Below the pieces are notes generated by a model. The model ran no database searches. It was not told where the DNA came from and worked only from the letters and a program-made list of their open reading frames with translations. Below, piece by piece: positions 55,838 to 60,868 of a stretch of 64,000 nt of DNA (positions are counted from its first letter, which is position 1; each line of letters opens with the position of its first letter). Position numbers and translations under genes: made by a program. The stretch spans positions 1-64,000 of the forward strand of contig PKUJ01000037.1 of the NCBI GenBank assembly GCA_002869565.1. The letters run 5' to 3'. The stretch is from Arcobacter sp. Its GTDB lineage: Bacteria > Campylobacterota > Campylobacteria > Campylobacterales > Arcobacteraceae.

Positions 55838-56338
55838 TTATGCTTTCATCGCAGCAGCGATTTTCTTATATTCAGGACCTTCTTCACCAAGAACAATCTC
55901 TGTTCCTTTTACACTAAATGGTGGTAAATCAAGAGGTCTTGGAGGAGGACCAAAAGTTTGTTCTCCACTTGCATTAAACTCTCCACCATGACAGGCACAT
56001 TTCCATTGAGTTTTCTTCCAAGCTGGAATACATCCTAAGTGAGTACATAAACCAATAGCAATAGTGAATCTATCACTACCAACTACTAAGTCTCTTTCAT
56101 TATTTTCCATATCTGCAGTTTTCTTAAGAACAAAAATTGGTTTACCTCTCCATGTAACGATAGAAGGTTACCCAGCTTTTAATCCACTAAGTTCAACATT
56201 TGTAAATCCTCCAGCTAGTACACTTGGTAATGGATCCCACGCTTGTTTCATACCTACAAGCGAAGCTACTCCACCTACTGCCGCGACAGCTGCAAATGTA
56301 TAACCTAGAAAATCTCGTCTATTTGTGTTGTTAGACAT
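55838..56338 (-). pseudogene. petA: Rieske iron-sulfur subunit of the bc1 complex, split by an in-frame TAA
   Basis: Two-iron-two-sulfur subunit that takes electrons from quinol. From ATG 56338 the start MSNNTNRRDFLGYTFAAVAAV has the twin-arginine signal/anchor RRDFLG. TAA at 56168-56170 is codon 57, after GGFTNVELSGLKAG; the same frame then reads PSIVTWRGKPIFVLKKT and continues to CTHLGCIPAW and CACHGGEF, which hold the [2Fe-2S] Cys and His ligands. Related proteins have Gln in this position, so CAA-to-TAA is the simplest change. A downstream start would lose the anchor and Tat signal. Full frame: 166 residues. Confidence 0.95.
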
Positions 56339-56486
56339 TTAGCTTCCTTATTTTAAAATTAAATCTTTACATTATATTCTTAAATTTCTTAAAAAGTTAT
56401 GATTTAGGTCAAGTAATACCCATTTTGTGAGGAAGGTGTGATATTTCTACACACTAGTATTATAAGCTAAACTTATTAAAGACTTT

Positions 56487-59003: not shown

Positions 59004-59028
59004 AGAAGTTAGTTTAAAACTAACTTCT
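59004..59028 (-). terminator. Terminator after the diguanylate cyclase
   Basis: Twelve-bp inverted repeat (AGAAGTTAGTTT / AAACTAACTTCT with one central base) overlapping the stop-codon region of the GGDEF gene; the minus-strand side continues with an AT-rich tail. Confidence 0.7.
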
Positions 59029-60868
59029 AATACTCATCTTTTAATTCACCATCCTTAATAAGGTCTTTTGAAAATACTACACTTTTATTTCTTCCTGTAT
59101 CTTTTGCTTCATATAGAGCTAAATCAGCAAATTTTAGACATTGCCAGAAATTATCTGTATGAGTAGGAAAAATTGAAGCTCCAATACTAATTGTTTTACT
59201 AAAAGAAGTTGATCCTACTGGAATCTCTTTTTTAGAGAAGGCAATTCTTATTTTTTCAGATACTTCGAATAAATATGATTCATCACAATTATAAAGTAAA
59301 ACAATAAACTCTTCTCCTCCGAATCGTATAACAACATCAGATTCTCGAGAATTTTCAACTAAAGTTTGTGAAATAATTTTAATTGCTTCATCTCCAACAT
59401 CATGACCGTATGTGTCATTAATCATTTTAAAGAAATCTATATCCACCATTAATATACCATATGTAATGCTAGTACGTTTAACTTGAGAAACCATTGTTTT
59501 TACTGATTCTTCTAAGTATTTTCTATTAAATAGACCTGTTAAAGGATCCGTTCTCGCTGTACGTTCTAGAATATACATAAGTTTTTTACTAACAATTTCA
59601 GGTTTTGCAGTATCAATATAATCTTGAATTGATGGTAATATATTACGTATTCTATTATGTTCATCTTCTGAGTCTGCAACAATCGATACAATAAAATCTA
59701 AGTCATTAGATATAGAGTATGGAATACAGATATAAAATTTCCCAGTGTCATGATTAAATTTATCACACATATCTTTAAATTGACAAGAATCAACGATAGT
59801 ATTAGTTCTATCTGCTCTACAGCCTTCTTGTGCTTGGCAATGAATCTCTTTTTCTATATATACTATATTAACATCTTTGTGTGTGGTATCAGCTTCAATA
59901 AAATTAAAATCTGTAAGTCCAAATTTTACTCGAAGGACATAAGCTAGTCTATTATAAACTTCTTTGATATGTTCATCGTGTTCTATTGTTTTTCTAAATC
60001 TATATATATCAGCAAGTCGATTAACGGTACTTTTAACATCAATAAGAGGATCTAGTTTTTTTTGTTTTTGGTGAACTAAAAAAACATTTATTTTTTGTTC
60101 AATATCTTCTAGTGTTGATTGAAGTTTTTCTAATAACCCATCAATCCAAGAAGCAACTGCATCACTCTCTTTCCCTTTTGTTGAACCAATTCGGTCAGAG
60201 TAATCTCCCTTTTGTGCTTTCTGCATTACTCTATTGATTGCTTCAAAAAGAGTTAAAAATGGAGAAATAAGTTTATTTACAAATATAAGAATAAAAATAA
60301 TTAAAACTAATGCAATAATAATTGTATTAAATACTGTAGTCATTCCTACTTCTTTAATATCATCAACTGACATTGCGATGGTAATTGCCCCTAAGGTATC
60401 TCCTTCTTTCGCAGTAGAATGACATGAAAGACAATCAATCGTGCCATCAGCAGTTCCAATATATGGAATAGTAATTCTATAAGAGCTTTTTCCAAAAATT
60501 CTTTCTTCTACTACTGCCCTTTCAACTCCTGAACGTAAAACTTCTTTATCAACTTCGTCTCTAGCTATTTCATTATTATGTCCTTTCCCAAATTGTTCAA
60601 TAATCGAAGAACCACGAGATAGCCAGATTTTGTCAATATTATCAAGTTTAGCAATTTGATTTAAAAAGAGTTCTCTATTATCAATGACGCCATTAACCAT
60701 GTGTGATGTCAAGCTATGTTTGACTGTTTGCGCGATAGCTTTTGCCTTATTCTCAACACTTTTTAATCCATAATCTCTGAAATTCATAAGTATATTTACA
60801 ATTAAGATAATAAACATAATTGACATTATAAGAAAAAGTGAGATTGAAATTTTACGTTTTGATTTCAT
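59027..60868 (-). CDS. Membrane diguanylate cyclase with periplasmic c-heme motif
   Basis: A 613-residue sensor that would make c-di-GMP. Order: TM1 (about 9-28), periplasmic domain (30-175) with a c-type heme motif CLSCH at 146-150 in the style of Tll0287-like/DUF3365 sensors, TM2 (177-197), HAMP (about 198-250), a linker region containing four cysteines C344, C350, C362 and C368 (CX5CX11CX5C), and a GGDEF domain (about 440-600) with GGEEF at 517-521 and an I-site RESD at 508-511. Catalytic motif and feedback site are intact. A heme or gas/redox input to biofilm or motility control is plausible; the cysteine cluster could bind metal. Lone gene with its own terminator. Confidence 0.85.
   Translation of the reverse strand: MKSKRKISISLFLIMSIMFIILIVNILMNFRDYGLKSVENKAKAIAQTVKHSLTSHMVNGVIDNRELFLNQIAKLDNIDKIWLSRGSSIIEQFGKGHNNEIARDEVDKEVLRSGVERAVVEERIFGKSSYRITIPYIGTADGTIDCLSCHSTAKEGDTLGAITIAMSVDDIKEVGMTTVFNTIIIALVLIIFILIFVNKLISPFLTLFEAINRVMQKAQKGDYSDRIGSTKGKESDAVASWIDGLLEKLQSTLEDIEQKINVFLVHQKQKKLDPLIDVKSTVNRLADIYRFRKTIEHDEHIKEVYNRLAYVLRVKFGLTDFNFIEADTTHKDVNIVYIEKEIHCQAQEGCRADRTNTIVDSCQFKDMCDKFNHDTGKFYICIPYSISNDLDFIVSIVADSEDEHNRIRNILPSIQDYIDTAKPEIVSKKLMYILERTARTDPLTGLFNRKYLEESVKTMVSQVKRTSITYGILMVDIDFFKMINDTYGHDVGDEAIKIISQTLVENSRESDVVIRFGGEEFIVLLYNCDESYLFEVSEKIRIAFSKKEIPVGSTSFSKTISIGASIFPTHTDNFWQCLKFADLALYEAKDTGRNKSVVFSKDLIKDGELKDEY

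Follow-up and report, generated by a model that had tools for sequence, protein, structure and literature searches.

A diguanylate cyclase of Arcobacter that looks to carry a c-type heme motif and a conserved cysteine quartet on opposite sides of the inner membrane

The window (the whole stretch of DNA analysed, 64,000 nucleotides of Arcobacter sp. contig PKUJ01000037.1) encodes what appears to be a single cyclase with two conserved sites, independent of each other and lying on either side of the membrane (Table 1). One is a heme-binding CXXCH motif in a periplasmic domain and the other a set of four cysteines in a cytoplasmic domain with a predicted GAF fold. Both sites are conserved and separable, and the existence of heme-only and of quartet-only relatives points to their independence. 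The pairing of a heme sensor with a four-cysteine, probably metal-binding, sensor most likely recurs widely in this bacterial group. A preliminary description, made from the DNA letters, had reported a cyclase whose periplasmic part carries a c-heme motif and whose cytoplasmic part carries a further set of cysteines. That outline is borne out, with a different set of cysteines.

Table 1. Position of the cyclase gene and of its domains and sites in the window.
Feature	Residues	Coordinates	Strand	Basis or remark
Diguanylate cyclase gene, membrane-bound product	613 aa	59027..60868	-	end includes stop codon
First transmembrane helix	~8-29	60782..60847	-	hydrophobic stretch by eye within predicted long helix 3-59
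Periplasmic c-heme sensor domain	30-175	60344..60781	-	66-row alignment A4; 3b42 match; hhalign with Tll0287-like proteins
Candidate distal heme ligand	Met57	60698..60700	-	conservation and alignment with Met60 of GSU0935
Heme-binding motif	C146-L-S-C149-H150	60419..60433	-	sole CXXCH in protein
Second transmembrane helix	~177-198	60275..60340	-	hydrophobic stretch by eye within predicted helix 169-219
HAMP-like signalling helices	~199-255	60104..60274	-	predicted helices 169-219 and 233-261
GAF-fold domain carrying cysteine quartet	258-432	59573..60097	-	AlphaFold2 model and fold comparison
First cysteine of conserved quartet	Cys344	59837..59839	-	base triplet read and conservation
Second cysteine of quartet (CRADRT)	Cys350	59819..59821	-	base triplet read and conservation
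Cysteine of the preliminary motif, not conserved	Cys362	59783..59785	-	Cys in 12/151 rows
Third cysteine of quartet	Cys368	59765..59767	-	conservation
Fourth cysteine of quartet, absent from preliminary motif	Cys381	59726..59728	-	conservation
GGDEF diguanylate cyclase domain	434-598	59075..59569	-	Pfam PF00990 E 4.2e-44; NCBIfam TIGR00254 E 9.9e-52 over 434-598
RxxD product-inhibition site, five residues ahead of GGEEF	R508-E-S-D511	59336..59347	-	sequence motif
GGEEF active-site motif	517-521	59306..59320	-	sequence motif

The protein is most likely a diguanylate cyclase, predicted to synthesize c-di-GMP from its GGDEF profile match (PF00990 score 150.6 bits, cut-off 23.8), its GG[DE]EF signature and its RxxD site. 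R515 and G517-F521 do not vary across the 68 rows of the alignment of relatives (A1). Our census comprises loci L001-L126 and L201-L240, a part of all profile matches, and holds 152 distinct rows; GGEEF occurs in 150 of these, the R..D pair in 116. Output domain and product-inhibition site had been described as intact, and both GGEEF at 517 and R508-D511 are confirmed. Every full-length relative read has GGDEF at its C-terminal end; one (L119) is interrupted by the end of its contig. Pfam HAMP is matched by four of the 68 relatives at E ≤ 0.1, and the window protein has no match to it.

The CLSCH motif at 146-150 had been placed in the periplasmic sensor, a position our analysis upholds. Among the 146 relatives whose N-terminus is complete, 135 carry a CXXCH and 11 lack it, so that the motif is more than a chance occurrence. 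Met57 is invariant in all 66 rows of the periplasmic alignment (A4), and its position holds methionine in 132 of the 135 CXXCH-bearing census rows, the remaining three having isoleucine. The profile of this alignment matches the sensor domain of GSU0935 (PDB: 3b42, E 0.0052, positions 9-138, nearly the whole domain); on its own this E-value is weak evidence, because PrgX, surely an unrelated protein, comes next at E 0.0063. In the 3b42 alignment His150 falls on His144 of GSU0935, and Met57 on the residue 84 positions earlier, Met60; His144 and Met60 are the reported axial heme ligands of GSU0935 (PMC8396549). Comparison of the alignment with 25 Tll0287-like proteins of related genomes by hhalign gives a probability of 94.5% (E 8.1e-8, 63 columns). 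The window protein matches no Pfam heme-sensor family at E ≤ 1, including PF11845 and PF21563, and for that reason we call its periplasmic domain a divergent relative rather than a Pfam member. Among 68 relatives at E ≤ 0.1, PF21563 is found in five (best E 2.5e-5) and PF11845 in four (best E 0.0046). The periplasmic part of the full-length model consists of helices 3-59 and 62-73 and strands 78-85, 117-121, 129-137 and 158-167. Sequence comparison thus suggests a distant relative of the c-heme Cache sensors (GSU0935 and Tll0287-like proteins), which would work like one.

By homology with these sensors, heme would be attached covalently, with the ligands named above, and would respond to NO or to redox state. 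GSU0582 and GSU0935 are reported to work via a redox-linked switch of Met ligation and also to bind NO and CO (PMC8396549). One signalling-fused c-heme Cache protein is described in a 2026 preprint as holding NO tightly and forming no stable O2 complex (PMC12889525). That report makes it doubtful that the outer domain senses oxygen, as the preliminary description had proposed.

The cytoplasmic cysteines had been assigned to a linker; they lie rather within a domain of confidently predicted GAF fold, in its loop. An AlphaFold2 model of residues 258-432 by themselves, built with 86 relatives, has a pLDDT of 88.7 and a pTM of 0.83. GAF structures head the fold comparison [best 3ci6_A, Z 12.5, r.m.s.d. 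3.0 Å, 144 residues aligned], GAF-like autoinducer-binding domains are also among the matches, and the best Foldseek match is likewise a GAF domain (5w10_D, E 4.2e-5, TM 0.47). The window protein has no Pfam GAF match at E ≤ 1, and for the 68 relatives there is none within 25 of the 57 families in the result. When the PDB was searched by sequence with the profile of the domain, there were five matches, all at E 0.2 or worse, which we took as chance; this search yielded no solved relative.

The preliminary description had proposed a CX5CX11CX5C cluster of residues 344, 350, 362 and 368. These residues and their spacing are present, but they are not the conserved set: residue 362 is cysteine in only 12 of 151 distinct relatives, and we rejected the motif. 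At this column T, E and D are commonest (Thr leads with 26%), and in order of conservation it comes 130th among the 175 columns of the domain. C344, C350, C368 and C381 form the conserved quartet, spaced C-X5-C-X17-C-X12-C. The four are among the most conserved residues of the domain (C368 99%, C350 96%, C381 96%, C344 87%). After removal from the census of another GGDEF protein (L058:2834-3784), 151 rows remain, of which 134 hold all four cysteines, 11 hold three (without C344) and six hold none or one. Spacing was measured in 131 rows (three more were not parsed): C350-X17-C368 is found in 130, the first gap is X5-X11 in 128, the three shorter values belonging to rows with extra cysteines nearby or not being clearly readable, and the last gap varies across relatives as C-X10-14-C. 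The preliminary description was to be given up if the protein bound no heme and the cysteines were not conserved; as to the cysteines, with the set corrected, they are conserved. C344 is absent from the first position in 11 of the 145 quartet-type rows, and 10 of these 11 have an extra CxxC at C368, as against 55 of 134 of the others (Fisher p 0.0025). Compensation of the lost C344 by this CxxC is not significant once relatedness is considered, and since the tree yields only three independent pairs, without support, we do not rely on it.

Heme motif and quartet occur apart from each other. Ten full-length relatives keep the quartet and have no CXXCH. Nine of them (L064, L065, L108, L113, L115-L118 and L120; family codes f12 and f15) have a shortened, divergent N-terminus, and in the tenth (L121:967-2769) an unrelated N-terminus and a HAMP domain are joined to the quartet-bearing GAF domain and GGDEF. 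Five rows (L042, L122-L125) have CXXCH without the quartet, and one (L126) has neither. A cysteine aligns near C368 in four of the six quartet-lacking relatives, so loss is complete for C344, C350 and C381 and uncertain for C368. A FastTree tree was computed with the periplasmic domain and the cysteine loop both excluded; on it, parsimony requires at least three changes of heme state and at least two of quartet state, which argues that each trait is kept on its own account. In four further loci (L102, L104, L112, L114) the frame starts late and lacks the periplasmic part, from true truncation, frameshift or assembly error.

The profile of the GAF domain matches 130 of 397 sampled Campylobacterota genomes (E ≤ 1e-6). 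At least five of these (G120, G178, G210, G281 and G316) are quartet-free; given these five, and since not every matching sequence was read, 125 is an upper limit for genomes with the quartet. Against plasmid records the profile gave no match. A scan of genome contigs with a close alignment, whose reach excludes distant phyla, gave 27 loci, all titled Arcobacteraceae, Campylobacterales, Epsilonproteobacteria and similar.

We slightly favour a one-component c-di-GMP enzyme with two inputs, the periplasmic heme and a cofactor on the cytoplasmic quartet. Outside the inner membrane, the Cache-like domain would hold a c-type heme on C146 and C149, its iron ligated proximally by H150 and, on the distal side, probably by Met57. 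Met57 would be displaced once the iron is oxidized or NO (or CO) binds, and the membrane-crossing helices would shift. Inside, C344, C350, C368 and C381 of the GAF domain would bind a cofactor, for which an Fe-S cluster that changes state in response to cytoplasmic redox, oxygen or NO is the likeliest candidate. Both inputs would converge on long helices that they share (the HAMP-like ones, followed by residues 401-439) and that govern how the GGDEF domains pair. The c-di-GMP output would then reflect both compartments, with product inhibition at R508-D511. It is chiefly the conservation pattern that suggests both the Fe-S cluster and the way in which the inputs are combined, and redox or metal chemistry at the quartet is a putative assignment too. 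Precedents have been reported: Hik2/CSK, a kinase that contains a GAF domain, has an Fe-S cluster (PMC6949291), and AirS has a [2Fe-2S] site of four cysteines spaced C-X7-C-X-C-X17-C (PMC4601167).

In our judgement an Fe-S cluster has about an even chance of being what the quartet holds. Zinc in a structural role, keeping the loop of the GAF domain in shape and leaving the periplasmic heme as the sole signal, is rather unlikely. Four cysteines conserved nearly together in a confidently predicted compact loop would suit a tetrathiolate site, as would the CxxC at C368 in one subgroup. Most of the spacings (X5-11, X17, X10-14) are, however, unlike paired CxxC knuckles, and the relatives of family f13 manage without the quartet, which means that the GAF fold does not strictly need it; neither of these points is strong. 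That the quartet is a metal-free thiol-disulfide switch answering cytoplasmic oxidants or reactive sulfur species we consider improbable: free cysteines adjoin a conserved arginine (R351, 98% of rows), and these organisms inhabit redox interfaces, but such a switch requires two cysteines and four are retained together in 134 of 151 rows. Anything other than these is more improbable again.

The heme domain may also be a pure redox-potential sensor, as proposed for GSU0582 and GSU0935, with NO incidental to its work, and we regard this as a real if minority possibility. In its favour, a conserved methionine, Met57, occupies the place of the redox-switching Met60, and the cyclase gene of relatives adjoins cytochrome bc1 genes, a neighbourhood that may reflect mere inheritance. 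On the other hand, GSU0582 and GSU0935 are reported to bind NO as well (PMC8396549), and the only signalling-fused member tested with NO is described as acting as an NO sensor (PMC12889525). A broader version of the two-input reading, which we put forward tentatively and hold to be less than evenly probable, is that these cyclases are phylum-wide trans-membrane coincidence detectors. They would join periplasmic heme c to a cytoplasmic GAF domain of a new type with an Fe-S cluster, c-di-GMP would report the redox or NO states on the two sides of the inner membrane, as their difference or as their conjunction, and lineages losing one sensor would keep the other.

The sCache_heme group (DUF3365/Tll0287-like PF11845, and the GSU0582/GSU0935 sensors PF21563) resembles the window protein in having a periplasmic domain flanked by two membrane helices, with a single CXXCH close to the end of the domain, and the likeness extends to profile similarity, the weak match to 3b42 over the whole domain and Met57 in the place of Met60. 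The distribution reported for the group covers Campylobacterota and c-di-GMP enzymes (PMC12889525). In contrast to its known members, the periplasmic domain of the window protein lies below Pfam detection and is followed by a GAF domain that bears cysteines and by GGDEF. Geobacter GSU2622 is reported to share a c-heme motif, HAMP, GAF and a c-di-GMP-type output, which in that protein is HD-GYP and here GGDEF (PMC8396549). AirS and Hik2/CSK, as their published accounts present them in part, resemble the window protein in a cytoplasmic sensor region with a cysteine-bound Fe-S cluster (a candidate only, in the case of the quartet), and CSK has a GAF domain. Both are histidine kinases, the portions of those accounts at hand describe no periplasmic heme for them, and for CSK they give one proven cysteine ligand. 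Since the spacing of the AirS cysteines differs from that of the quartet, the window protein is not filed as an AirS type.

The PocR domain (PF10114), which 2 of 60 relatives' genomes encode, presumably shares a similar cysteine theme and was considered for that. It too is a cytoplasmic sensor, and the two relatives read have three conserved cysteines in it, but their order differs, and hhalign with a two-sequence PocR alignment gave a probability of 0.5%; on this small comparison a PocR-type site was set aside.

Searching the open-access literature, mostly by titles and abstracts and with subscription journals mostly outside its range, we found no title on a cysteine-bearing GAF cyclase; c-heme Cache sensors on c-di-GMP enzymes have already been reported (PMC12889525). 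Fe-S and heme sensors are usually studied singly, and here one enzyme has two candidate cofactor sites, one on each side of the membrane, which many Campylobacterota conserve. Relatives with both sites, heme only, quartet only and neither form a natural series, which lets one ask which input drives c-di-GMP and how the inputs are combined. The cysteine-bearing GAF domain, missed by Pfam in the window protein, may merit a family entry of its own.

The cyclase gene is flanked on one side by a gene for a UvrD-family helicase on the opposite strand and on the other by an argB-like amino-acid kinase gene, after which comes the gene for threonine synthase. The order helicase-cyclase-argB is seen in 15 of the 27 named relatives' loci compared (several of the remaining 12 are short contigs), and in 13 of these 15 the threonine synthase gene is also visible; in one locus (L178) cyclase and argB are about 2 kb apart. 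The genome from which the window comes has a second copy of the cyclase (L056, G000:C25:126729-128534), 39% identical and with both CXXCH and quartet, and encodes ResB-type cytochrome c maturation proteins, in keeping with a c-type heme in the cyclase. A denitrification context was considered and discarded: the cytochrome d1-type match in this genome is a 341-residue frame that reaches the cut-off only with its pieces summed. Elsewhere in the window, the Rieske Fe-S gene of the bc1 operon (55838-56340, minus strand) has an in-frame stop codon near 56168-56170, which is either a sequencing error or the mark of a damaged gene; in relatives, for example in locus L153, it is uninterrupted. Just past the end of the window (G000:C41:65524-65991), a 755-residue frame contains another Tll0287-like c-heme domain, one of several in this genome.
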